Shown piece by piece: positions 736 to 14,636 of a stretch of 21,238 bases of DNA; the first letter of the stretch is position 1, and each line of letters opens with the position of its first letter. The position numbers and the translations under genes were made by a program. Below the pieces are notes generated by a model that saw only the letters and a program-made list of their open reading frames with translations, did no database searches and had not been told where the DNA came from. This stretch comes from a virus, in IMG/VR virus record IMGVR_UViG_3300021962_009340, positions 1-21,238 of that record, one strand, 5' to 3'.

Positions 736-975
736 ATGCAAGAAGTAATAGTACATAAAATTCGCATGGGTGATGTGGAAGATCCCGACCTTTTCGTCGC
801 TGAACCTATTTGGAAGTGGCAACAAACTGATGAAGGTAAGTGGGTCATGGAACATAGCAAACAACAGCCCATGTGGAAGCGCACAGCAGATCCTACTACA
901 TATGGGCATCTATATACCATACACGCCTGGTTAGATGGACAAGATTTGACATATTGGAAATTGAAATATGAGTAG
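736..975 (+). CDS. conserved phage protein of unknown function, 79 aa
   Basis: Small soluble protein with no signal peptide or membrane segment. It is rich in Trp and acidic residues, with a block GDVEDPDLFVAEPIW (12-26) followed by a WQQTDEGKWVMEH stretch. I recall similar short proteins in T4-like aquatic phages from the MGDVEDPDL..AEPIW..WQQ pattern, but I know no function for them. The start ATG is 1 nt after the thyA stop, and the 3' end overlaps the next gene by 8 nt. It therefore sits inside a tightly coupled operon between nucleotide metabolism and the epimerase gene. A role tied to the replisome or nucleotide pool would be guesswork. Confidence 0.75.
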   Translation: MQEVIVHKIRMGDVEDPDLFVAEPIWKWQQTDEGKWVMEHSKQQPMWKRTADPTTYGHLYTIHAWLDGQDLTYWKLKYE

Positions 976-1942
976 AAAATTTATTTTAGTAACAGGTGGG
1001 TTTGGTCTTATAGGACATCGTGTTGTACGCAATCTAAGAGATACTAATCATTATCTAACAGTCACAGATACAGAAACGAATTATGGTATAATCCCGCAAG
1101 ATGAGATTGATTATCTCATGGCTCAACGAAAGAAAGTGACTGGTGCTGTGCATAGTTACAAATACGATATCAGCAACAATCTATGTATGAATAAGTTGTT
1201 TGATCATGCTCAACCAGATATCGTCATACACATGGCGAGTTTTCCACGACAGAAAGTTGTCAATAAAAATCCTGCTAAAGGCGCACAGGTCATGTGCGAA
1301 GGCCTATTGAATCTATTAGAGAATGCCAAAAAACATAATGTCAAAAAATTTGTGTATATCAGCAGCAGCATGGTTTATGGAGATTTCACAGACGATGTGA
1401 CTGAAGATGCAGTTTGCAAACCACAAGGACAATATGGCATCATGAAACTTGCTGGCGAATGGCTCACTAGAGACTATACACGTAGCACTGGCATGGCGCA
1501 TACTATCATACGTCCTAGTGCTGTTTATGGTCCATTAGATGTTGAAGATCGTGTGATCGCAAAGTTCATGCTTACAGCGATGCGCGGTGGCACACTCAAT
1601 GTAAATGGTGCGAATGAGACATTAGATTTCACATACGTTGATGATGCTGCTAATGGTATCACAGCAGCCGCATTGAGCGACAACACAGATAACAAAACGT
1701 ATAACATCACAAAGAGCCATAGTCGCACATTGCTTGATGCTGCCCAACTTGCTGTGAAGATCGTAGGCAAGGGTAATATCGAAGTTAGAGATAAAGATGC
1801 CGACTTCCCTAGCCGCGGCGCATTGAACATTGACGCTGCCCGACGTGATTTCGGATATGATCCTAAGGTCGATGTAGAAGAAGGATTTCAAAAATATTAT
1901 GACTGGCTCAAAACTTCTCCGTACTGGGCTAGCAAAATCTAA
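968..1942 (+). CDS. NAD-dependent epimerase/dehydratase (extended SDR family)
   Basis: Extended short-chain dehydrogenase/reductase of the nucleotide-sugar epimerase/dehydratase type, 324 aa, the usual length. The Rossmann dinucleotide motif GGFGLIG lies at 10-16. HMAS (88-91) matches the conserved H-x-A-S/A turn. The catalytic triad is represented by the Ser stretch ISSSMVYG (131-138) and Y156-x3-K160 in QYGIMK. RPSAVYGP and the later DFTYVDDAANG block fit the sugar-nucleotide-binding half. It probably acts on an NDP-sugar in the cytosol, but the substrate cannot be read from sequence. The downstream radical SAM and DegT aminotransferase genes suggest a dedicated sugar pathway. The start overlaps the previous gene by 8 nt, and the 3' end overlaps the radical SAM gene by 44 nt. 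Confidence 0.9.
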   Translation: MSRKFILVTGGFGLIGHRVVRNLRDTNHYLTVTDTETNYGIIPQDEIDYLMAQRKKVTGAVHSYKYDISNNLCMNKLFDHAQPDIVIHMASFPRQKVVNKNPAKGAQVMCEGLLNLLENAKKHNVKKFVYISSSMVYGDFTDDVTEDAVCKPQGQYGIMKLAGEWLTRDYTRSTGMAHTIIRPSAVYGPLDVEDRVIAKFMLTAMRGGTLNVNGANETLDFTYVDDAANGITAAALSDNTDNKTYNITKSHSRTLLDAAQLAVKIVGKGNIEVRDKDADFPSRGALNIDAARRDFGYDPKVDVEEGFQKYYDWLKTSPYWASKI

Positions 1943-3146
1943 AACGTTTTGTGCATTACCCTGGGTCAGTGTCACTACAGATACAGACGGCAGCATAAGA
2001 CCGTGCTGTATAAGCCTAGATAAAATCACGAAAAAAGACCAGTCTTTTTATAATCTAGGTAAAGATAACATAGAAGACATAATCAATTCTGATCATTTTG
2101 TACAGATCAGAGAGAAGATGCTGAACGGAGAAAAAGTCAGTGGCTGCGAAAATTGCTACAAACAGGAAGAAAACGTAGGTAGCAGTCATAGAACATATTA
2201 TAATCAAGTATTTCCTGGAAAATATACAGAATCATTTATACATCCTAATATCAAATATGCAGATTTGCGTTTTGGAAATTTATGTAATTTGAAATGTAGG
2301 AGCTGCAATTCATCCGCAAGCAGCAGTATAGCCAAAGAAGTGATACAACTTATCAATACTGAGATAGACAGATATCACTATAGCTCTGATTCAAACATCG
2401 AAGAGTGGTATACTACTGATATGTTTAGATCGAACACTGACAAATTTATGGACACTTTGGAAGAATTATATATCACAGGTGGTGAACCTACGTTAGTAGA
2501 AAATAATATAGATTTTTTATCTATGCTAGTAAAGCAAGGTAAAAGTCATAAAATTAGAATCAAAATAAACTCTAACATGACTAATATCAATAAATCTTTT
2601 TATGATTTGATCAGTCAATTTAGGAGCACTTGTTTTTTTGCTAGCATAGATGGATATAAAGAAATACAGGAATATCTCAGATACCCCAGTAACTGGAACA
2701 CTATAGATACTAATCTACAGAAGATTTTAGACAATCCGAAAATGATCGTTAGACCCACACCGGTAGTACAGATAGGAAATCTGAATAGACTTGTAGATTT
2801 GTTTGAGTATTTTGAGAGTTACAATAGAAAGCATAAAAAAGGTAAGATCCAGATAGATCCTATCATGTTAGAATTTCCTTCTTACTTTGATATAAAATAC
2901 CTACCTACATCTTACAAGGAACAATGCTTTAGGACCATAGATGACTGGGTCAAAACAAAGTGTAAATATCAAAGTTCTCAGTTTCATCTAAAGATCCAGG
3001 CTATAAAAAACAAATGTTTGACAGATGCTTTTGATAAAGATAAATTATTAGAATATAAGTCATTCAATGACATCCTTGATAATCATAGAAATCATTATCT
3101 GAAAGATGTCAATTTAGAACTTTATGAAATGATAAAAGACATATGA
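1899..3146 (+). CDS. radical SAM enzyme with N-terminal twitch/SPASM-like domain
   Basis: Radical SAM protein, 415 aa. The N-terminal part (about 17-90) has the Cys pattern of a twitch/SPASM auxiliary iron-sulfur domain: FCALPW (C18), DGSIRPCC (C36, C37), then CENC (C83, C86). The radical SAM core follows, with the cluster triad C129-x3-C133-x2-C136 in GNLCNLKCRSC and the GGEP SAM-binding motif at 194-197. This order (twitch first, core second) is reversed relative to classic SPASM enzymes but matches a known N-terminal-twitch family frequent in phage and surface-polysaccharide loci. Substrate unknown. The only ATG that keeps C18 is at 1899, giving an unusual 44-nt overlap with the epimerase gene. 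The stop overlaps the next start as ATGA. Sampled composition is clearly more AT-rich (about 27-30% GC) than neighbouring genes, suggesting separate acquisition. Confidence 0.88.
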   Translation: MTGSKLLRTGLAKSKTFCALPWVSVTTDTDGSIRPCCISLDKITKKDQSFYNLGKDNIEDIINSDHFVQIREKMLNGEKVSGCENCYKQEENVGSSHRTYYNQVFPGKYTESFIHPNIKYADLRFGNLCNLKCRSCNSSASSSIAKEVIQLINTEIDRYHYSSDSNIEEWYTTDMFRSNTDKFMDTLEELYITGGEPTLVENNIDFLSMLVKQGKSHKIRIKINSNMTNINKSFYDLISQFRSTCFFASIDGYKEIQEYLRYPSNWNTIDTNLQKILDNPKMIVRPTPVVQIGNLNRLVDLFEYFESYNRKHKKGKIQIDPIMLEFPSYFDIKYLPTSYKEQCFRTIDDWVKTKCKYQSSQFHLKIQAIKNKCLTDAFDKDKLLEYKSFNDILDNHRNHYLKDVNLELYEMIKDI

Positions 3147-4216
3147 TATCTCATTTTGGGCTAGCAAGACAGTATAAAAATCTAAAAGCCGAATTATTAG
3201 AGGCTACTGATCTAGTACTACGAAGTGGTGAACTGATGAACGGTTCATACACAGCAGCCTTTGAGACATGGCTCGCTATGCGAACTAATACTATGTTCGC
3301 AATCACTGTACATAGCGGTACGCAAGCGTTAGAGATGATCGCACACTATGTGCGCAAAACATCTGATGATAAATTTGATCAGCCCCCTATAGTAAGGATA
3401 CCTAACATAACTTATATCGCTACTCTCAATGCTTTCTTGAAAGCAGGATTTGTCGTTGAATTAGTTGATACTGACAAAAATGGATTGATGAGACCTGATC
3501 GTGAAAACTTATTATCTAACTTTAGTAAGTTTTCATGTAATGTTGGATTGTATGGGGCTAATCCAGAACTACAGTCTATCACTGGTCATAACTATAATGA
3601 CGTTGTAGATGGAGCGCAACATTGGCTTGTTGCTGATAATGTAGGCACAGGAATGGCCATCAGTTTTGATCCAACTAAAAATCTACCTAGTAGTGGTAAT
3701 GGTGGTGCTATCGTAACTAATGATCGTGAGTTATGGGACTTTGCCTATAGTTATCGTAGCAACGGCAAACCCGATCATGACACAGCAGGTACTAATAGCC
3801 GCATGAGCGAACTAGACTGCGCACATCTTTCTGTACGTGCGAATTATATCGATCAATGGCAATGGCGCCGCAAAGAGATACGTCATTATTATCTGGATGA
3901 ACTAAAACATGTCAACGTTCGATGCTTGAGCAGGGATCATCTTGTACATGCTGATCAAAAGTTTGTACTCTATACTGACAAGAGAGATGAACTCAATCAA
4001 TTTCTAAATGAAAACGGTATTGAGACTAAGATACACTACCCTAAAGCACTAAGCGAATTGCCTGTTGCTAAACATATATATGCTAAACCTGATATGCTGA
4101 GTACTAGCGTGAATCTGACGAGGGGACTATTGAGTTTACCTATCTATCCAGAGTTATCTGATAGTGAAGTTGAGTTTGTTGCGAACAAAGTAAAGTCTTT
4201 TTTTGCTTCTAACTAG
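3143..4216 (+). CDS. DegT/DnrJ/EryC1-type PLP aminotransferase
   Basis: Fold-type I, PLP-dependent sugar aminotransferase family, 357 aa (typical is 360-400). Landmarks: the substrate/phosphate loop HSGTQALEM (57-65); PNITYIATLNAFLKAG (87-102), the usual N-T-x-x-A-T segment; DGAQHW (156-161), which carries the PLP-ring Asp; and FDPTKNLPSSGNGG, with K179 as the expected Schiff-base lysine. The C-terminal IHYPKAL and LPIYPELS motifs are also family hallmarks. Members convert keto-sugar nucleotides to amino sugars, usually with glutamate as donor. The start shares ATGA with the radical SAM stop, so the two are translationally coupled. It ends in an 8-nt convergent overlap with the minus-strand sulfotransferase-like gene. 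Amino-sugar formation is inferred from the family, and the product is not known. Confidence 0.9.
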   Translation: MISHFGLARQYKNLKAELLEATDLVLRSGELMNGSYTAAFETWLAMRTNTMFAITVHSGTQALEMIAHYVRKTSDDKFDQPPIVRIPNITYIATLNAFLKAGFVVELVDTDKNGLMRPDRENLLSNFSKFSCNVGLYGANPELQSITGHNYNDVVDGAQHWLVADNVGTGMAISFDPTKNLPSSGNGGAIVTNDRELWDFAYSYRSNGKPDHDTAGTNSRMSELDCAHLSVRANYIDQWQWRRKEIRHYYLDELKHVNVRCLSRDHLVHADQKFVLYTDKRDELNQFLNENGIETKIHYPKALSELPVAKHIYAKPDMLSTSVNLTRGLLSLPIYPELSDSEVEFVANKVKSFFASN

Positions 4217-4922
4217 CCTTTGCTTCAAGTTCTAGTATAACATCTTGTGTTTGTTTATCCAGCTGGACAAAAGGATCTAGCTGATTTTGTTTTTTAGGCA
4301 TTTTTACTATATCAACTTTATCAAAATCAATATCCTCATAGGCTACTACTTCACTATCTTTTTTATCTAACATTTGCCAATGCTCTATTCTCTTATACAG
4401 ATTATAAATTATATCTTTAGCAACAGAAACATTTGAATAAACGGTGTTATCTTTATTTGGTTTATATTGTTTCGTTCCCATGGCCAGTGCATAGCTAGCC
4501 AATTGCCTGCGTAAATTTTTTCTATACAAGAAGATGTTCTTGTCCGCTAGATAATATAATTTCTCATAAGATTTTGTGGACATCGGCATCACATGATTAT
4601 AAAACAAAACAGGATTTTTGTGTGCATCATGCCTTTCTAATAAACTTAGCCTGTAATTTTCTTCTGATTCTATATCTAAGGTACGCTGTTCACCTACGAT
4701 TTTGCTTTGTATAGAACGTCTTAGCACATCATAATAATATTTTTTATAACCGCAGCCATTCTCATACTCATAGACATAATCACCATACCCCGGCTTCATG
4801 TAGTTGTAGAAGTGAAATTGATTTAGGAATTGGGGAATTATAGTTAGTTTATATTTATTTGATAGGTACTTTGCATACCAGTTGCTACCGGTCCTAGGAG
4901 TAGACCACAAATTTATGATCAT
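4209..4922 (-). CDS. sulfotransferase-like protein
   Basis: Protein of 237 aa with a sulfotransferase signature. STPRTGSNW (7-15) matches the 5'-phosphosulfate-binding loop of PAPS-dependent enzymes. LYRKNLRRQLASYALA (132-147) matches the 3'-phosphate-binding element, with R134 and S143 as the expected contacts. No signal peptide is seen, so it is cytosolic. It would move sulfate from PAPS to an acceptor, plausibly a surface sugar or lipid, but the acceptor is not deducible. It is the last gene of a minus-strand unit: its ATG overlaps the o-spanin stop (ATGA), so it is co-translated with lysis genes. Codon use and composition are strongly AT-biased, unlike the spanins. It is shorter than many sulfotransferases, so a degenerate or specialised form is possible. 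Confidence 0.75.
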   Translation of the reverse strand: MIINLWSTPRTGSNWYAKYLSNKYKLTIIPQFLNQFHFYNYMKPGYGDYVYEYENGCGYKKYYYDVLRRSIQSKIVGEQRTLDIESEENYRLSLLERHDAHKNPVLFYNHVMPMSTKSYEKLYYLADKNIFLYRKNLRRQLASYALAMGTKQYKPNKDNTVYSNVSVAKDIIYNLYKRIEHWQMLDKKDSEVVAYEDIDFDKVDIVKMPKKQNQLDPFVQLDKQTQDVILELEAKAS

Positions 4923-5194
4923 TTTTCGCTGACGCTATCGAATATTTCTTTTTGCTTTGCGTACCATTCTTTCCAAGCAGCGTTTTGAGCAGCGCACATA
5001 TGGTACTTGTTATAGTTTCCTACAACAGTTTTTAGGAACTCGCTGAAATAGACTTTATCTTTACCGATCTTGTCTAGTTTGTCACATTCTACTAATAATA
5101 TTTCCGGTGCTTCTGGAAATTTAGCAGTGACAGGAACAGTCGTAGCACATCCTGCTAACAAAGTAACTGCGCAAAATAGTAGTAGTTTATTCAC
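4919..5194 (-). CDS. putative outer-membrane spanin (Rz1-like lipoprotein)
   Basis: Small lipoprotein, 91 aa from the GTG at 5194. I prefer that start over an upstream ATG at 5266 because it places a clean lipoprotein signal at the N-terminus: VNK, a hydrophobic stretch LLLFCAVTLLAG, then Cys16 in the lipobox LLAGC. It also overlaps the i-spanin stop codon and has an AAGGGG ribosome-binding site about 6 nt upstream. The mature protein of about 76 residues would be anchored in the outer membrane. With the gene before it, this is the i-spanin/o-spanin pair that fuses inner and outer membranes at the end of lysis. The assignment rests on architecture and gene order, as o-spanins share little sequence. 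The stop overlaps the sulfotransferase-like start. Confidence 0.75.
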   Translation of the reverse strand: MNKLLLFCAVTLLAGCATTVPVTAKFPEAPEILLVECDKLDKIGKDKVYFSEFLKTVVGNYNKYHMCAAQNAAWKEWYAKQKEIFDSVSEK

Positions 5195-5666
5195 TGACTT
5201 CCCCTTGTGGCTTGTTTTCTGGTGTAGTATTTTCCATTGGCACTTCATTGCTTGCTGATATATCATGAGCCTTGATCGCTACTTCTGGTACTTCACAATT
5301 ACTATCAAATACTTTCACTTCTCTATCTATATATTCGACTACCTTAGCACCCTTTACCCTGATATACTCTTTTTCCTTGACTACCTTTTCTACGATGACA
5401 GTATTTGTCTCTGCTGCTTTGGCCTGTGCTTCCGCTACACGGGCTTCCATCTCTTTCACACGTAGTTCCCACTTGGCTTTCTCTGCTAAACCCCCCTCGA
5501 GGTATATTCCTAAAGATAATAGCAGTATGCCTATGATCTGTACAGGAAGTTTATATTTGCTGATGAAAGGTATGAACCCTAACACGAATCCTGCAATAGT
5601 ACCCAAAACACCAATCAAGAATATGATGTGAACGAAAGTCTCGGGTAGCCAGTTTATAATCCACAT
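5187..5666 (-). CDS. putative inner-membrane spanin (Rz-like)
   Basis: Protein of 159 aa: two N-terminal hydrophobic segments (about 11-33 and 38-56), then a long charged, Ala/Glu/Lys-rich helix predicted as coiled coil (about 58-118), and a C-terminal tail with a single Cys (C124) in NCEVPEVAIKAHD. The Cys-x-VP-x-x-x-I-x-x-H pattern is one I associate with Rz-like proteins of T4-like aquatic phages. It is followed directly by a lipoprotein gene starting within its stop codon, the standard spanin arrangement. Two membrane segments rather than one is a variation on the textbook i-spanin. Its ATG lies only 7 nt from a late-promoter match on the minus strand (5681-5674), so its late mRNA may have almost no leader. 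Confidence 0.72.
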   Translation of the reverse strand: MWIINWLPETFVHIIFLIGVLGTIAGFVLGFIPFISKYKLPVQIIGILLLSLGIYLEGGLAEKAKWELRVKEMEARVAEAQAKAAETNTVIVEKVVKEKEYIRVKGAKVVEYIDREVKVFDSNCEVPEVAIKAHDISASNEVPMENTTPENKPQGEVSE

Positions 5667-5670
5667 ATGA

Positions 5671-5682
5671 CATTATTTATGC
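5671..5682 (-). promoter_or_regulatory. late promoter candidate for the spanin unit
   Basis: Read on the minus strand this is GCATAAATAATG, containing CATAAATA, close to the T4 late-promoter octamer TATAAATA. It lies immediately upstream of the i-spanin ATG at 5666. It overlaps the plus-strand late promoter at 5681, so the two form a compact divergent pair. Confidence 0.6.
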
Positions 5683-5702
5683 TAAATACTAGTAGGAGTA
5701 TT
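5681..5702 (+). promoter_or_regulatory. late promoter with overlapping RBS hairpin
   Basis: GCTAAATA (5681-5688) is a late-promoter match. The sequence AATACT (5685-5690), a 6-nt loop and AGTATT (5697-5702) form a perfect 6-bp inverted repeat. Its loop and 3' arm hold the AGGAG ribosome-binding site (5694-5698) of the gene at 5707. A late transcript starting 6-7 nt after the octamer would lack the 5' arm and leave AGGAG unpaired. Confidence 0.55.
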
Positions 5703-5706
5703 ATCT

Positions 5707-6234
5707 ATGGCTATTCAACTTGTAAATATCGGCGGTCTTCCAAACGATGGTGAGGGTGATCCGTTACGTACAGCGTTTAGTAAGATAAACAATAACTTTG
5801 TTTATTTGCAGCAAACAAGCACTAATTTAGCAAAAACAGTGACTCTAAACAATGATCCCGAACAAGTCATATTTGAATATCCAGCAGATGAATTCACCAT
5901 GGCGCTATTTCAAGTCAAGAGTTATCGCGATGACAACAATGACAGCCAGATGATATTTTTAGGTGCGCAGACTTATAACGACTTATCAGATGTAAAATAT
6001 ACAGTATATGGTATCACTAATGTAGGTAATTGGCTTACACAATATGACATGGATGTAAGCGGGGGTAATGTAAGATTATTAGTCAATCCATTGCAGAATG
6101 AAGTAATCACACACTTCATCAGTTATCAAGTAACATATGAAGGCGATCTAGGTGTGGGTGTACCGATGATAAGCGAAAGTGGGGCAGGACTTGTCACAGA
6201 GACAGGCAACGTATATATCACGACAGAAAGCTAA
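5707..6234 (+). CDS. tail-fibre/virion-type structural protein
   Basis: Protein of 175 aa opening with IGGLPNDGEGDPLRTAF (8-24) followed by KINNNF. This is a recurrent N-terminal signature of phage fibre and appendage proteins (PNDGTGDPLRTAF..iN.NF). The middle is beta-rich with a W and many Val/Thr, and the C-terminus ends in TETGNVYITT, resembling the TTGNVYVRT segment of the large structural protein at 7818. No catalytic motif or signal peptide. A late promoter and AGGAG RBS precede it, consistent with late expression as a virion component. It could be a short fibre, an adaptor, or a decoration attached by its N-terminal motif. The exact location on the particle is unknown. The next gene begins 1 nt after its stop. 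Confidence 0.6.
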   Translation: MAIQLVNIGGLPNDGEGDPLRTAFSKINNNFVYLQQTSTNLAKTVTLNNDPEQVIFEYPADEFTMALFQVKSYRDDNNDSQMIFLGAQTYNDLSDVKYTVYGITNVGNWLTQYDMDVSGGNVRLLVNPLQNEVITHFISYQVTYEGDLGVGVPMISESGAGLVTETGNVYITTES

Positions 6235-6235
6235 G

Positions 6236-6640
6236 ATGCGCGCCAAAGAATTTTTGACAGAACAAGAACTATCAGATGTCCATGATGGACTAGATGTTGC
6301 CTCATTGGCATTACCATATACATATATGATGCCAGAATTACAGAATAGTAACTTCTATAACATCTATCGTTTTGGTGTTGCTATCGCAGCAGTGCGCGGG
6401 GAAGAAGGTGATAAAGATGGAGTGCAGGATCAAAACAGACCTGACTTTAGAGCAACCAGTGAATGGGGTCAGAATCTTATCGTAAGTAGTTATGATCCTG
6501 AAATCAAAGGTGTCTTGAAAAAGGCATTAGTAAAAACTCATCATAGTGGAATGAAATCAGTAAGTAGTCCAGGTAGCGAAGAGATGAAGGATACATATAG
6601 CGGCTCTCCAGTCAAAGCATTCAAAGGTTATGCAAAATGA
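6236..6640 (+). CDS. small protein with capsid-targeting-like N-terminus, paralogue 1
   Basis: I place the start at ATG 6236, directly after the previous stop, rather than the longer in-frame start at 6179, which would overlap the upstream gene by 56 nt. This gives 134 aa starting MRAKEFLTEQE. That N-terminus resembles the T4 capsid-targeting sequence (M-K-T-Y-Q-E-F-I-x-E), including an L-T-E that fits the gp21 prohead protease site (L/I-x-E). Residues around 16-60 form a hydrophobic, probably helical domain. The C-terminus is basic: SPVKAFKGYAK. The N- and C-terminal ends recur in the next gene (MRAKEFVNEA and SPIKPFKGYKK). No known enzyme motif. An internal head protein, possibly injected with the DNA, is an inference. 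The stop overlaps the next start as ATGA. Confidence 0.7.
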   Translation: MRAKEFLTEQELSDVHDGLDVASLALPYTYMMPELQNSNFYNIYRFGVAIAAVRGEEGDKDGVQDQNRPDFRATSEWGQNLIVSSYDPEIKGVLKKALVKTHHSGMKSVSSPGSEEMKDTYSGSPVKAFKGYAK

Positions 6641-7005
6641 GAGCTAAAGAATTCGTCAACGAAGCAATCAATGGTAAGCCTGGCAAAAGATATGGCCAAG
6701 CAAGCACTGGTATAAACACTTTTGGTAGAAGCAATTATGATAATACATATGACTTGCATAGAGTCATGATGGCAGTAGCAATGACTGACGGTAAGATCAA
6801 GCCAGACCTTGATCAGCAAAGTTGGGCAGCAAAATACAATACTGCACATCCCTATACATATGAAGAACAAGAAATGCTTGAACTGGCTTATAAGGCAGCA
6901 GGTATACCTTATCAGGACTTGAATCAAGGTGACATGGATAGTAAAGAATTAGAAGATACTCAAGTAAAAAGTCCAATCAAACCTTTCAAGGGATATAAAA
7001 AATAA
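6637..7005 (+). CDS. small protein with capsid-targeting-like N-terminus, paralogue 2
   Basis: Protein of 122 aa starting MRAKEFVNEA and ending SPIKPFKGYKK; both ends match the preceding gene while the middle differs. EFVNEA aligns with the EFIAEA of the T4 internal-protein capsid-targeting sequence, and cleavage after E9 (V-N-E) would be a slightly non-canonical prohead protease site. The central part has a DLHRVMMAVAMTDGKI stretch and a PYTYEEQEMLELAYKAAG segment, which looks like a small helical bundle. No cysteines, no membrane segment. Translation is coupled to the upstream gene (ATGA overlap), so the two are made in similar amounts. Function unknown; tandem duplication followed by divergence is the simplest origin. 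Confidence 0.7.
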   Translation: MRAKEFVNEAINGKPGKRYGQASTGINTFGRSNYDNTYDLHRVMMAVAMTDGKIKPDLDQQSWAAKYNTAHPYTYEEQEMLELAYKAAGIPYQDLNQGDMDSKELEDTQVKSPIKPFKGYKK

Positions 7006-7055: not shown

Positions 7056-7763
7056 ATGAAAGACCTTATAGATATCAATAACACGCTTGATCTAGTTAAG
7101 CTCAAACTATACAATGAATGGCTATATACTGCCCATATCTATGATGAGGGTAATAGCAACATGCACCAGGGTTTGACTGCACAAGTTGTAGGTAAATACA
7201 TCGATCCTTTAAATTTGCCTAAAGACGCAGCAATCTTAGACGTAGGATGCGGTCCAGGATATTTCCTAGACGAAATGAAGAAGCGAGAATACACCAATCT
7301 TACAGGTATCACGCTAAGTCCGGGAGACATCAAAATCTGTGAAGAAAAGGGTCATAAGATCAAGAAATATGACATTAGTTTCTTTCCGCAAAAAGACGGC
7401 TACTATGATGAAAGTGTAGACTTTATTTTCTTGCGTCAAGCACTTGAGCATAGCCCATATCCTATCTTTAGTTTGATGGAATATAATCGTGTATTGAAAC
7501 AGGGAAGCAAAATATATATTGAAGTTCCCGCCCCTGCTTGTGATCGAAAGCATGAATATAATCCTAATCACTATAGCATTTTGGGACAAGATCAGTTGAT
7601 GGCATTATTGAATCGCACAGGATTCAAGATCGATAATTTTCAAGCTATCGAATTCAAGATCGGGATTCCTACTGTGACTAATGAAGATGGATCTGTGAAA
7701 GAATTCACAGAAAAGTATTTCTGCATAGTAGCAACTAAAGATCGTCCCTTAGACATCAAATAA
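7056..7763 (+). CDS. class I SAM-dependent methyltransferase
   Basis: Protein of 235 aa with a class I (Methyltransf_11/UbiE-like) fold. SAM-binding motif I is LDVGCGPGYF (61-70). The acidic motif II region follows at about 78-96, and FIFLRQALEHSPYP (123-136) is the usual post-II segment with the 'EH' seen in small-molecule and sugar methyltransferases. RVLKQGSKIYIEVPAP is the typical beta-5 region. It lacks DNA-methylase DPPY or PC motifs, so it is unlikely to modify DNA bases. Substrate unknown; many phage relatives sit among sugar-modification genes, and it may belong functionally with the epimerase, aminotransferase and sulfotransferase genes. AGGAA RBS 5 nt upstream. It lies between late genes and is followed by a hairpin-promoter element that may also end its transcript. 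Confidence 0.85.
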   Translation: MKDLIDINNTLDLVKLKLYNEWLYTAHIYDEGNSNMHQGLTAQVVGKYIDPLNLPKDAAILDVGCGPGYFLDEMKKREYTNLTGITLSPGDIKICEEKGHKIKKYDISFFPQKDGYYDESVDFIFLRQALEHSPYPIFSLMEYNRVLKQGSKIYIEVPAPACDRKHEYNPNHYSILGQDQLMALLNRTGFKIDNFQAIEFKIGIPTVTNEDGSVKEFTEKYFCIVATKDRPLDIK

Positions 7764-7776
7764 CCAGCCCAAAAAC

Positions 7777-7817
7777 GATAAATACTCTCATAGATTGATT
7801 TTTATGAGAGTATTTTT
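7777..7817 (+). promoter_or_regulatory. late promoter nested in a 12-bp hairpin that covers the RBS
   Basis: GATAAATA (7777-7784) matches the late-promoter octamer. AATACTCTCATA (7781-7792) and TATGAGAGTATT (7803-7814) are perfect 12-bp complements with a 10-nt loop, and five T follow (7813-7817) up to the ATG at 7818. The only Shine-Dalgarno-like bases (GAGAG, 7806-7810) are in the 3' arm. RNA arriving from upstream would form the hairpin, which could act as a terminator and an RBS lock. RNA started at the late promoter (near 7790) would lack the 5' arm. This is the logic known for T4 lysozyme, soc and gene 49 leaders. Confidence 0.65.
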
Positions 7818-9329
7818 ATGGCTTATCCGGAACCAGCAAACGTCAGCCCGTGGTATTTGCGCAATATCACGCAAGCCCTCGCCCTAAATGAAACTACGGG
7901 TAATGTCTATGTCCGTACAGACGCACAGATTGATATAAGCAATGCTAATATCAGCATAGGCAATGTTGGTATAGATAGTTTTGGTAATGTCGATATATCA
8001 GGAAACACTCTCCCTGTAACAGTAGAAGGTGGCAACATCACAGTTGACACTATCACAGGTAATGTCAATGTCACACAGGGCACTGATCCATGGATCGTAG
8101 AGGGCAATGTATCAATCAGTGGTACTGCCAATGTCAGTTTAGGTGGCACTAACTTAGACGCATTTGGTAGATTGCGTGTTAGCGATCCATATACATTGTT
8201 TGATACAAGAGCGATGTATTATGACCATGGACAATTCGCAAGCAATCTAGTAGCAGGTGGTAATGTAGCGTATAACGCAAACTCAAGCACATACCTCATG
8301 ACCGTAGCAACTTCAGGGGATGCTGTATATCGTGAGACAACAAAGACATTTAGTTATCAGCCAGGCAAAAGTTTATTAGTGATGAACACATTCTGCGGTA
8401 ACACACCAACAGCAGGATTGACACAGCGTGTTGGTTATTTCAATGATGAGAACGGTATATACTTTGAAGTCAATGGTATAACAAAGAACATGGTCATACG
8501 CTCAAATAGTACTGGATCATTGACTTATGAAACAGTTCCACAAAGTAGTTGGAACGGTGACAGATTGACTGGATTAGGCGGTGCTAACAATCCATCAGGC
8601 ATAGCATTGAATGTTGACAGAGATCAGATATTTTGGATGGACATTGAATGGTTAGGTGTAGGTAGCGTAAGAACAGGTTTCGTCATCAATGGTCAGTTCA
8701 TTGTATGTCATACATTCCATCATGCTAATGAATCAGGTAATGTCAACACATATATGGGCACAGCAAATCTACCTGTGCGTTATGAGTTGATTAGCACAGG
8801 CCCTGCAGGTAATCTTAGACAGATTTGTAGCACTGTGATATCAGAAGGTGGCTATCAGTTATCAGGACAACAAAAGAGTGCAGGACATACATTTAGTCAA
8901 GCAGTAGATTTACCTAACGATGATAGTTATGTTCCTGTATTTTCAATAAGACTAAAAAGCACTATGCCAGATGCTATAGTGATACCAAGCACATGGAGTT
9001 TGAGTGTAAGTTCAAACGATCTATATGCGTGGAAGATAGTTCGCAGAGCGATAACATCAGGTGGTAGTTGGACTTCAGCAGGCGCAGATAGTCCTGTAGA
9101 ATACAATATAGAACCAACAGCATTAGTAAGCGGTGATGTAGTTGATGAAGGATTTATCCGTGCATCAAATCAAAGCGTGAGCAGTCCGTCTAATCAAGAG
9201 ATTACATTTGAGAATCAACTAGTGCGTGATCCTTTTACTAATACTATGTACGAGTTTGTGATCATGGCTGCTACTGATGGCACTAATCAAAATGCGTTGG
9301 CTGCTGTACAATGGCAACAGATTACATAA
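7818..9329 (+). CDS. large fibre/virion structural protein
   Basis: Protein of 503 aa. The N-terminal 130 residues are a low-complexity beta-repeat built from GNV/ISGN units, followed by LDAFGRLRVSDPYTLFD (136-152), a signature I recall from structural proteins of many aquatic phages. The C-terminal 350 residues are beta-rich with jelly-roll-like spacing of Trp, Gly and aromatic residues, ending in EFVIMAATDGTNQNALAAVQWQQIT. There is no signal peptide or enzyme motif. It is probably a head fibre, tail fibre or other surface-exposed virion protein with a host-contact C-terminal domain. It has its own late-promoter/hairpin element just upstream. Exact virion location cannot be told from sequence. 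Confidence 0.65.
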   Translation: MAYPEPANVSPWYLRNITQALALNETTGNVYVRTDAQIDISNANISIGNVGIDSFGNVDISGNTLPVTVEGGNITVDTITGNVNVTQGTDPWIVEGNVSISGTANVSLGGTNLDAFGRLRVSDPYTLFDTRAMYYDHGQFASNLVAGGNVAYNANSSTYLMTVATSGDAVYRETTKTFSYQPGKSLLVMNTFCGNTPTAGLTQRVGYFNDENGIYFEVNGITKNMVIRSNSTGSLTYETVPQSSWNGDRLTGLGGANNPSGIALNVDRDQIFWMDIEWLGVGSVRTGFVINGQFIVCHTFHHANESGNVNTYMGTANLPVRYELISTGPAGNLRQICSTVISEGGYQLSGQQKSAGHTFSQAVDLPNDDSYVPVFSIRLKSTMPDAIVIPSTWSLSVSSNDLYAWKIVRRAITSGGSWTSAGADSPVEYNIEPTALVSGDVVDEGFIRASNQSVSSPSNQEITFENQLVRDPFTNTMYEFVIMAATDGTNQNALAAVQWQQIT

Positions 9330-9800: not shown

Positions 9801-10133
9801 ATGGGACAAAGATATACAGAAGCAGAACTGAATGCTAGAATGCGATTCTCAATCGGCATATTGCTTGCCGTTTGCTTAGTTGGTATAGTGTTCGTGGTAC
9901 TATACTCACTAATATTCGTGACTCAACCAATAGGACAGCAAAGTCCTAACGATGCTGAATTCTTCAAGTTGATCACACCAATCGCAACATTTCTTACTGG
10001 CATCTTATCAGGCATCATGCTTGGTAAAACAGACAACAGAGATGATAAGAAAGATGGTCCTGAGCAACCAGAACTTGGTCCAGCAAAAGAACCATTAGAA
10101 CTAATGGATGAAGTAGACGATCATATAGCATGA
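9801..10133 (+). CDS. holin candidate, small two-helix membrane protein
   Basis: Protein of 110 aa with two predicted membrane helices (about 16-40 and 54-75) separated by a short polar loop with QPIGQQSPND, and a charged, acidic C-terminal tail (DDKKDGPEQPE onward). The second helix, FFKLITPIATFLTGILSGIMLG, is typical of small phage holin-like proteins. The gene overlaps the endolysin start by ATGA, the usual holin-endolysin coupling. Two-helix topology would fit a class II holin releasing the endolysin to the periplasm. No motif proves holin function; a membrane regulator of lysis is the alternative. AGAGG RBS upstream. Confidence 0.6.
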   Translation: MGQRYTEAELNARMRFSIGILLAVCLVGIVFVVLYSLIFVTQPIGQQSPNDAEFFKLITPIATFLTGILSGIMLGKTDNRDDKKDGPEQPELGPAKEPLELMDEVDDHIA

Positions 10134-11287
10134 GTTTGAAAAGTTTACAACAAAAGATAGGTGTAGCAGCCGATGGTGCTTGGGGACCAGGCACATTCAA
10201 AGCAGCCATGGCATATTATAAGTTGCCAGCCGCTAGAGCAGCACATTTCTTTGGCCAGACAGCACATGAGACAGGTGGCTTCAAAGCATTTAGTGAGAAT
10301 CTAAACTACAATGCTGCTGGGTTGAAAGCAATATTCAAGAAATATTTCCCAGATGATAGTACAGCAAATCGTTATGCTAGACAGCCAGAGAAGATCGCTA
10401 ATCGTGTTTACGCAAGTCGCATGGGCAATGGTCCAGAAAGTAGTGGTGACGGCTGGCGATATCGTGGTCGCGGAGCATTACAATTGACAGGTCGCGATAA
10501 TTACGCAGCCTTCGCAAAGTATTGTAATCGTCCAGACGTGATGAGCAATCCAGACATCGTTGCTACAGAACTAGCATTTGAGAGTGCTATGTTCTTCTTT
10601 GAACGTAACAAGTTATGGGCTATTTGCGATCAAGGTATAAACGAGAAAGCGATTTTAGTATTGACTAAAAGAATCAATGGTGGCACACACGGTCTTGCTG
10701 ATCGTAGCGAGAGAACAAAAAAATACTTTATGTGGACAGCAGGTGCAAGTCCTGTAGTGGCAGTCTCAGCACCTCAAGCAACAGCACCAAGCGCACCAGC
10801 ATTGATAGTAACACCTGATATGCAACTTAGCCCACATTTCAACCTAAAAGAGTTTACAAAAAGTGACACAGCAATACGTAAAAGAATCGATAATACACCA
10901 GGACCAGTACACGCAGCAAATCTCAAAAAAGTCTGTGAGAAAATACTTGAGCCAGTTCGCAATCATTTTGGTAGGCCTGTTCGTATCAATAGTGGCTATC
11001 GCGGTCCCGCTCTCAACGCCGCTGTTGGTGGATCAAGCAAATCGCAGCACTGCAATGGAATGGCTGTTGACTTTGAAATAGATGGATTACCTAATCCTGA
11101 ATTAGCAAAATGGGTGAGTGAGAATTGTGAGTTTGATCAGATCATACTTGAATTCTATGATCCAAAAGAAGGACCTAACAGTGGTTGGGTACATGCAAGT
11201 TACAGTGAAGGTGCTAATAGAAAGCAGAAACTTACTGCTGTAACAGAGAATGGTAAAACAGTTTACAAACCAGGATTCCTGGCATAA
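10130..11287 (+). CDS. endolysin with GH19 muramidase/chitinase-like and M15 peptidase domains
   Basis: Modular endolysin, 385 aa. Residues 5-25 look like a trimmed peptidoglycan-binding repeat (ADGAWGPGTFKA). Residues about 35-200 form a GH19-type glycosidase: catalytic E47 in HETGGF, likely second acid E56, and the GRGALQLTGRDNY block (113-125). An Ala/Pro-rich linker (206-226) leads to a Peptidase_M15-type domain (about 230-360) with zinc-site residues H307 and D314 in SQHCNGMAVDF and H355 in WVHASY. It would cut both the glycan and the peptide cross-links of peptidoglycan. No signal peptide, so export depends on a holin, consistent with ATGA overlap with the gene before it. Two catalytic domains are uncommon for phages of Gram-negative hosts. 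Confidence 0.9.
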   Translation: MSLKSLQQKIGVAADGAWGPGTFKAAMAYYKLPAARAAHFFGQTAHETGGFKAFSENLNYNAAGLKAIFKKYFPDDSTANRYARQPEKIANRVYASRMGNGPESSGDGWRYRGRGALQLTGRDNYAAFAKYCNRPDVMSNPDIVATELAFESAMFFFERNKLWAICDQGINEKAILVLTKRINGGTHGLADRSERTKKYFMWTAGASPVVAVSAPQATAPSAPALIVTPDMQLSPHFNLKEFTKSDTAIRKRIDNTPGPVHAANLKKVCEKILEPVRNHFGRPVRINSGYRGPALNAAVGGSSKSQHCNGMAVDFEIDGLPNPELAKWVSENCEFDQIILEFYDPKEGPNSGWVHASYSEGANRKQKLTAVTENGKTVYKPGFLA

Positions 11288-13096: not shown

Positions 13097-13104
13097 ACTA
13101 AATA
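13097..13104 (+). promoter_or_regulatory. late promoter candidate
   Basis: ACTAAATA, close to the CTAAATA form used by T4-like aquatic phages. Only TCTTT separates it from the ATG at 13110. There is no Shine-Dalgarno sequence in the 22-nt gap after the terminase, so late mRNA from here would start at or next to the start codon. Confidence 0.55.
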
Positions 13105-13109
13105 TCTTT

Positions 13110-14636
13110 ATGCCTGTAAATACGGAAACTCTAAACAAGAATATCTATGATGAACTCCAAGCTAGGGGAATGGATCCTGTCCCTTTAGACAGCAAAGGGG
13201 ATACTTATGATGAGATTGAGCAGGCTGATGTATTCCGTTTCAAATATGATAAAGAAGATCCTAAAAAAGTAAGTTGGGTGACGATTGAGGGTCCTGATTT
13301 AGTTTTTTACGTCGATGATGATTTTGTAAAGTCACCTACGTTCGAACCCTTCTCAAGATTTATGAAAAATTGGGCGCGTAGAAAGACATTAGGATTCGAG
13401 ATTCTAAACAAAGATCGCCTGTTTGGTGATATGAAAAAGAGGACGATTATGAAAAAGAAAGAAGAAATGATGGAAGGCTATCACCCAATGGGCAAAAACA
13501 AAAGCTATAATGATGCTATACCGCAAGTAAAAATTATATTACAACATACACGCCAACTTGAAGAAGGCGAACAGCGTTTCCGTAACATCGCCAAGATATT
13601 TGTAGAAAATACAAGCGGTGAGCGTTTCTTGCTACCAACTAATCGCCCTGGTCTAGCAAGAGTATATGCACGCCATATCGCAGAAGGTGGTACTCCATAC
13701 GATGATAAAGGTCGTCATATCACTACATTAGTAGAAGAATATCAGAAGATGGCAGGATTCGTCCGTGCCACACGCAATGGTCAGTTCAACGAATCAGCAT
13801 TGAAGTTAGTCAATGAAGGTCTAAATCATTATAATGAATTACGCATGACACTACAAGGCATGGCTAGCCATCGCGGATATAACAAGTATTTTGAAAGTTA
13901 TACACCGGTATTGAACGAAGAATCAGATGATGACATATCTCTCAATGAACTATTCGTACAGGAAACACTAGATCCACGCATCGAAAGCGTGATGCCAATT
14001 CTAAAACGTTTGAATAAAAATATAACTGAGATGAGTGCTGTAAAAGAATTAGAAGAATGGGCAGAATCAATCACAGAAGTTGAAGATCAAACTACAAAGA
14101 CACTAGCAGAACCTGCTGAAGAAATGCTTGATGAAGCACCGGGCGCAGAAACATTGGCGCATGACGATGAAACTGAAAAGTCAAATCTTGATGCATTTGA
14201 TTTAGATGAAACTGAATTACGTTATTATTACCCTTCTGCTACAAAATCAAGAATCAAAGACAAGATCAGAAAGAAATTCAATAGAATGGAAGAAGGTCCA
14301 GCAGACGAACCAGTAGAACCAGACATGGACTCAGATGACAAACGCTGGGACGATGTTGAAGATGTATCAGAAGGTTCTATGAAAGCGGCTATGCATGATG
14401 ATGCCGAGAACATGTCACTAAAAGAATTCCTCATGAAATATGGTGATGATGATTTTGCTAGAGAATTTTGGCACACCGTGAATGGCGTTGATGAAGGTCT
14501 TGACGCTAACCAAAAACGTGCAGGACAATTAGGCCCAACTGAAAAAGTAGGACCAAAAGGCGCTGTAGGCAAATTGGTTGGCGCAAGCGAAAGTGTTGAA
14601 TTGGATACCTTGAAAACACTTTCGGGAATAAAGTAA
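13110..14636 (+). CDS. conserved phage protein of unknown function, 508 aa
   Basis: Large, strongly charged protein. The N-terminal 230 residues look folded, with ADVFRFKYDKEDPKKVSWV, a PLDSKGD turn and a basic segment RRKTLGFEIL. The C-terminal half (about 270-508) is acidic and probably extended, with repeated helix-like units such as EMSAVKELEEWAES (334-347). It ends in a segment containing DANQKRAGQLGPTEKVGPKG, which I recall from proteins of other T4-like aquatic phages without a known role. No enzyme motif, signal or membrane segment. Expression from a late promoter next to its ATG, and its position after the terminase, favour a head or packaging role. An alternative start at Met21 (13170) has a purine-rich run too close to be a good RBS. 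Confidence 0.8.
   Translation: MPVNTETLNKNIYDELQARGMDPVPLDSKGDTYDEIEQADVFRFKYDKEDPKKVSWVTIEGPDLVFYVDDDFVKSPTFEPFSRFMKNWARRKTLGFEILNKDRLFGDMKKRTIMKKKEEMMEGYHPMGKNKSYNDAIPQVKIILQHTRQLEEGEQRFRNIAKIFVENTSGERFLLPTNRPGLARVYARHIAEGGTPYDDKGRHITTLVEEYQKMAGFVRATRNGQFNESALKLVNEGLNHYNELRMTLQGMASHRGYNKYFESYTPVLNEESDDDISLNELFVQETLDPRIESVMPILKRLNKNITEMSAVKELEEWAESITEVEDQTTKTLAEPAEEMLDEAPGAETLAHDDETEKSNLDAFDLDETELRYYYPSATKSRIKDKIRKKFNRMEEGPADEPVEPDMDSDDKRWDDVEDVSEGSMKAAMHDDAENMSLKEFLMKYGDDDFAREFWHTVNGVDEGLDANQKRAGQLGPTEKVGPKGAVGKLVGASESVELDTLKTLSGIK

Follow-up and report, generated by a model that had tools for sequence, protein, structure and literature searches.

Paralogous proteins of an uncultured jumbo phage carry a candidate new form of the T4-like capsid-loading signal

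Introduction

Two adjacent small genes of an uncultured virus encode proteins, here called A and B, that begin with almost the same nine residues and finish with almost the same tail, which raises the question of whether these ends mark proteins destined for the phage head. In phage T4, the first ten residues of the capsid-targeting sequence (CTS) suffice for packaging, with targeting mapped to residues 4 and 7 and processing to residues 8 and 10; the protease gp21 cleaves after L/I-x-E, gp23 is cut after residue 65, and the head-packaged Alt is likewise processed by gp21 (PMC9026906). The T4 internal proteins IPI and IPIII provide precedents for injected anti-defence proteins (PMC3012670, PMC9391042). 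A preliminary description of the DNA had interpreted A and B as T4-style internal proteins, with a variable centre that an arms race would have produced.

Results

The locus and its source

The window, by which we mean the whole stretch of 21,238 bases analysed, belongs to an uncultured jumbo T4-like myovirus in which terminase, gp32-like and UvsX-like genes are recognisable by profile matches. Its TerL is 49% identical to that of Pseudomonas phage PA5oct. The nearest long relative (G003), whose B is 78% identical to B of the window, has a gp23 sharing 66-69% identity with those of PA5oct and Vibrio phage 2.275.O; judged by gp23, PA5oct (Arenbergviridae) and this Vibrio phage are the closest relatives in culture. 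A and B lie in an operon ordered as CTAAATA, gp9/gp10-like gene, A and B, the start of B and the stop of A overlapping in ATGA:

5682..5688, plus strand: CTAAATA, a T4-late-promoter-like element 25 nt upstream of the operon's first gene
5707..6234, plus strand: first gene of the operon, 175 aa, with a gp9/gp10-like baseplate/fibre-connector N-terminus (phrog_677, E 6.7e-6; phrog_8859, E 2.4e-7)
6236-6640, plus strand: protein A, 134 aa, MRAKEFLTEQ...SPVKAFKGYAK, with a YRFG-type centre
6236..6262, plus strand: tag of A, MRAKEFLTE, with a predicted protease cut after E9
6575..6637, plus strand: C-terminal tail of A, SEEMKDTYSGSPVKAFKGYAK
6637-7005, plus strand: protein B, 122 aa, MRAKEFVNEA...SPIKPFKGYKK, a paralogue of A
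6637..6663, plus strand: tag of B, MRAKEFVNE, with a predicted protease cut after E9
6940..7002, plus strand: C-terminal tail of B, SKELEDTQVKSPIKPFKGYKK
7056..7763, plus strand: class I SAM methyltransferase (PF13489, E 5.7e-15), the conserved next gene

The same promoter-like element recurs upstream of virion structural genes at 7778 and 13098. Beside the operon, positions 968-4922 hold a cluster of epimerase-like, radical SAM/SPASM, DegT-type aminotransferase-like and sulfotransferase-like genes, several of them kept in many relatives, which is possibly a surface or sugar modification cassette. Overlapping genes on the minus strand (4919-5666), conserved beside the operon, resemble an inner/outer spanin pair (phrog_456 for 4919-5266), and a putative endolysin with GH19-like and peptidase M15 domains is found at 10130-11287.

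A and B are paralogues over their whole length

The shared MRAKEF[L/V]xE starts and SP[V/I]KxFKGYxK tails reported in the preliminary description are real: MRAKEF occurs exactly twice in the window against none for a backwards control, and the last 21 residues alone give a BLASTP E of 8e-6. The same description held that the ends are alike and the middles differ, of which the likeness of the ends stood and the unrelatedness of the centres did not. Profiles of A-type and B-type relatives align end to end with a probability of 99.6%, and centre-only profiles of the two groups still match (E 3.8e-7, probability 92.9%) against E 0.48 for a reversed control, which rules out unrelated centres. Since the profiles match even without both ends, the two proteins belong to one family and are paralogous throughout, the centre being a diverged homologous domain.

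In an alignment of 91 family sequences, M1, R2, A3, F6, E9, R42, E104 and S112 are invariant and Y38 is nearly so, the conservation of residues 1-9 being partly forced by how some of the loci were fetched; among the 38 sequences of the A group, M1, A3, E5, F6 and E9 are invariant. The family has no match in Pfam, PHROG, NCBIfam or PDB, searches with A, B and two other members found no homologue in cultured phages, and none of the family was found in bacterial genomes. A profile match to an S-layer protein (E 0.023) was taken as chance. AlphaFold2 predicts helical structures for A and B with moderate confidence (pLDDT 81 and 76, pTM about 0.5), and with no PDB match we rejected any fold-based assignment of function. 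The models are least certain at the tagged N-terminus, with low values at the end of B as well and better ones in the small helical centre; the contrast between N-terminus and centre is as expected for a removable tag. The predicted pI is 5.6 for A and 6.7 for B, or 5.57 and 6.97 for the mature forms, compared with a family median of 8.1 and with 8.9-9.5 for the T4 internal proteins.

The family alignment also contains a nearly invariant S-x-E directly before the tail (residues 102-104 of B). The phiKZ-type proteases cleave at S/A-x-E, and T4 Alt is cleaved near its C-terminus as well, so that a second cut at this site is conceivable.

The N-terminal tag is a portable protein motif

To avoid circularity, we fetched open reading frames with only MRAKEF fixed, at the DNA level. 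Position 7 was I, L, V or M in 102 of the 116 frames retrieved and position 9 was E in 94 of them. Searched across the whole viral collection, the tag codons in their real order hit at least 120 stretches and the same codons in scrambled order hit 9; 13 large records contained 33 tag matches and none of the backwards pattern. The codons of the tag vary freely, with six Arg codons and four Ala codons in use and variation also at [ILV]7; conservation is thus at the protein level, and MRA[KR][ED]F[ILV]xE is a genuine portable N-terminal motif. Neither MRAKEF nor MRAREF was found in this sense in the open-access papers searched.

The tag heads unrelated proteins, including an ADP-ribosyltransferase (PF03496, E 9.5e-13), a GNAT acetyltransferase, a LysM+M23 protein, an amidoligase, GH19 enzymes (twice), DUF6267 (twice) and DUF6321 proteins and many proteins with no match. 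Two of the tagged genes lie adjacent to each other (L096:6640-7242 and 7239-7946), and the former, which has the PF03496 domain, recalls T4 Alt, itself an ADP-ribosyltransferase. The exact L-x-E protease site claimed earlier for A is correctly described, and F-L-T-E is identical to the T4 gp23 cleavage site; in B the site reads V-N-E, one step from the L/I-x-E consensus.

An element acting in DNA or RNA, either the downstream region of a late promoter or a translation-start signal, might also keep the first codons of a gene constant. The motif [ACG]TAAATA occurred within 40 nt upstream of 25 of 166 tagged genes compared with 239 of 1016 other open reading frames, and enrichment of the tagged genes as a whole was therefore not seen. 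Split by class, it preceded 6 of 111 genes of the small A/B family, most of which lie inside operons, and 19 of 55 other tagged genes, among which it clusters 12 nt before the ATG, as such an element would predict. The wide synonymous-codon variation at R2, A3 and [ILV]7, however, led us to reject a motif at the DNA level; E9 moreover sits 24 nt into the gene, and the motif also begins internal modules of fused proteins. A nucleic-acid signal is accordingly a highly improbable explanation of the tag. In several late genes (13098-13110 in the window, and L088, L090, L118, L134, L157, L176 and others), 15 tagged ones included, the motif starts exactly 12 nt ahead of the ATG, a spacing that would give leaderless or nearly leaderless late mRNAs.

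The C-terminal tail, fusions and replacement of a centre

The tail motif was found near the C-terminus of 93 of 2,488 open reading frames. Of these, 69 encode tagged proteins and about a dozen encode further family members, untagged or variant; five are copies of the core protein in the position of gp68, just before the protease. Of 70 occurrences of the strict form SPxKxFKGY, 69 were at the end of the protein; 62 of these 69 had a recognisable tag and the remainder were mostly truncated by contig ends.

The preliminary description had proposed a search of related phages for the same ends around unrelated centres. One such case was found, the A/B family otherwise having one homologous centre. 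In L019:6369-6722, one of four tandem members, tag and tail are intact and the centre has been exchanged in frame for a suffix_2_RND membrane domain of bacterial type (E 2.6e-16), whose GC content is 64% where that of the locus is 34%; the family profile matches only residues 1-12 and the last 30 of this chimaera. The same arrangement is present in L020; the two sequences do not differ there and are perhaps not separate cases.

Elsewhere, five larger proteins end in the A/B module:

L140, 8839-12102: fusion of 1087 aa
L048:2062-3390 (also in L024): fusion of 442 aa
L222, 9911-11185: fusion of 424 aa
L159, 2782-3939: fusion of 385 aa
L079: fusion of 384 aa

Three of the fusions carry an internal MRA[KNQ]EF[IV]xxQLxE, with L-x-E still on offer. 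By sequence, those of L159, L222 and L140 are apparently nucleotidyltransferase-like, Pfam giving at most a sub-threshold FAD-synthetase hint. All fusion and centre-replacement cases come from metagenome assemblies.

Gene order and selection

A family member directly follows the gp9/gp10-like gene in 64 of 66 cases and directly precedes the methyltransferase in 58 of 63, in loci that partly overlap. With pS near saturation, so that only strong positive selection is excluded, pN/pS was 0.15-0.47 for the A/B centre, 0.14-0.33 for the gp9/gp10-like gene and 0.12-0.17 for the methyltransferase. A and B evolve somewhat faster than the methyltransferase, yet under purifying selection.

These data bear on the proposal that A and B evolve rapidly and serve as injected anti-defence proteins. 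Their CTS-like tag, the T4 precedents IPI and IPIII (PMC3012670, PMC9391042) and the single true centre replacement, by the suffix_2_RND domain, are what an arms race could leave behind, but the centres of A and B are homologous, R42 is invariant and Y38 nearly so, gene order is fixed, and pN/pS of the centre lies within or slightly above the range of the neighbouring genes at near-saturated pS. What had been taken for a variable centre made by an arms race is the centre of a single conserved family whose gene order is fixed and on which purifying selection acts, and we regard this proposal as quite unlikely.

Links to the prohead core and its protease

Processing of the predicted kind would need a gp21-type protease. 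The preliminary description had asked for one in the genome; it is absent from the 21-kb fragment itself and present in relatives. G003 encodes an S77 protease (E 3.7e-29) alongside gp23, a portal, a core protein and a gp22-like gene, and among the records of the tag search an S77 protease was found in all five over 190 kb and also in one of 121 kb.

The tag itself occurs in this neighbourhood. In L136, a tagged protein of 71 aa is encoded between the portal and the scaffold/S77/gp22/gp23 genes, the position of gp67. Its homologue in PA5oct, gp333 (40% identity, E 3e-19), occupies the same position, starts with MKINDIITE and is annotated as detected by ESI-MS/MS. A looser start, M[KR]xx[DE][hydrophobic]2xE, was not clearly enriched among the MS-detected proteins of PA5oct; the strict form was found in 2 of 93 MS-positive proteins and in two further proteins that were not MS-positive. 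As these cases are too few, only the homology to gp333 was used.

Should the tag instead mark the tail, the baseplate or another location in the virion or cell, a gp9/gp10-like gene at the head of the operon and tagged GH19 and M23 enzymes would be readily understood. That the motif ends in a site of the prohead-protease type, with the tag on the gp67-position protein and the tail on the gp68-position protein, argues against such a destination, which we consider very unlikely.

Discussion

We favour, as likely, an explanation in which A and B are internal head proteins or components of the prohead core, with a capsid-targeting sequence that can be cleaved off. It is supported by the conservation of E9, the match to T4 residues and the unrelated tagged proteins, as well as by L136 and gp333, the tail on the gp68-position protein, the S77 protease in relatives and the late-promoter-like site. 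Counting against it are the failure to find a homologue in cultured phages, the lack of clear enrichment among MS-detected PA5oct proteins, the non-basic character of A and B, the V-N-E of B and a gene position that, unlike that of the T4 internal proteins, is conserved. Of the T4-style interpretation first put forward, the CTS-like start that ends in a protease site and heads unrelated proteins, an Alt-like ADP-ribosyltransferase included, has held up, and the arms race has not.

Computation gave us the motif and its portable nature, the common tails, the neighbouring genes and the protease of the relatives, and from these we infer that A and B are docked and packaged, cut, retained and injected. 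Made late, they would be docked by their N-terminal nine residues into the scaffolding core around the portal; the activated S77/gp21-type protease would cut after [L/I/V]-x-E9 and remove the docking peptide, and mature A and B would be kept in the head beside the DNA and exit together with it on infection. The SPxK tail, common to the core protein encoded before the protease, would probably be a second contact with the core.

The competing possibilities overlap partly with this prohead-core explanation, and our confidences are not meant to sum to one. A and B could be gp67/gp68-like core proteins that serve in assembly only, being cut up or expelled at maturation and never injected. Conserved gene order, purifying selection, a tail in common with the gp68-position protein and a tag in common with the gp67-position protein are in keeping with this, whereas a single predicted cut near the N-terminus is not fragmentation, the tag also marks enzymes that would be of use only at a later stage, and extra family copies differ between phages; on balance a role confined to assembly seems rather unlikely. 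Under our preferred explanation, whether the mature proteins act in the host cell is close to an even question, with the balance slightly against, and a specifically anti-restriction function is unlikely.

Taken together, the sequences support a capsid-loading signal like that of T4 but in a new form, with an added element at the C-terminus, in A and B and in a broad range of other proteins. We tentatively suggest that in a large clade of uncultured jumbo T4-like phages two-ended loading, by a cleavable N-terminal MRAKEF[ILV]xE label and a core-binding SPxK tail or module at the C-terminus, may build a changing set of enzymes and membrane proteins into the prohead core and deliver them into the host, the A/B module serving also as a carrier at the C-terminus of cargo enzymes. 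Should the label act as we suppose, a string of nine residues would list head-packaged, and probably injected, proteins of metagenomic phages, reaching phages with no cultured relative that carries the family; the list so far includes an ADP-ribosyltransferase, an acetyltransferase, an amidoligase and cell-wall enzymes. Capsid loading would then also have a second signal sequence next to that of T4, with a suggested role for the C-terminus that the literature cited here does not describe for T4 internal proteins.

Comparison with known systems

The likeness to the T4 consensus holds in part: IPII and IPIII start with MKTYQEFIAEA and IPI does not. With an offset of one residue, F7, I8 and E10 of the T4 CTS correspond to F6, [ILV]7 and E9 of the tag. 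As with IPI, IPII and IPIII, a short N-terminal peptide with an EFIxE-type end labels small proteins with unrelated bodies, and relatives have a prohead protease of the same family; the promoter-like sequence may in addition point to late expression. In contrast to the T4 internal proteins, the label is MRA[KR][ED]F[ILV]xE, of nine residues, rather than MKTYQEFIAE, and A and B have a conserved C-terminal SPxK tail, have bodies of a single conserved family whose gene order and position are fixed, and are not basic; their bodies gave no sequence or fold match to those of the T4 internal proteins, IPI included.

The tagged protein with an ADP-ribosyltransferase domain in a related phage resembles T4 Alt; A and B have no such domain, and their relation to Alt is only through the shared start peptide. 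A likeness to gp67 and gp68 of T4 is seen in the tag on the gp67-position protein and the SPxK-type tail on the gp68-position protein, whereas A and B belong to another operon and their centres are not homologous to gp67 or gp68. Polyvalent and MuF-fused effectors (PMC5512222, PMC9503650) are likewise a varied set of enzymes with predicted carriage in the head. Unlike the MuF or portal fusions, the carrier here would be a predicted-cleavable peptide of nine residues together with a small C-terminal module.
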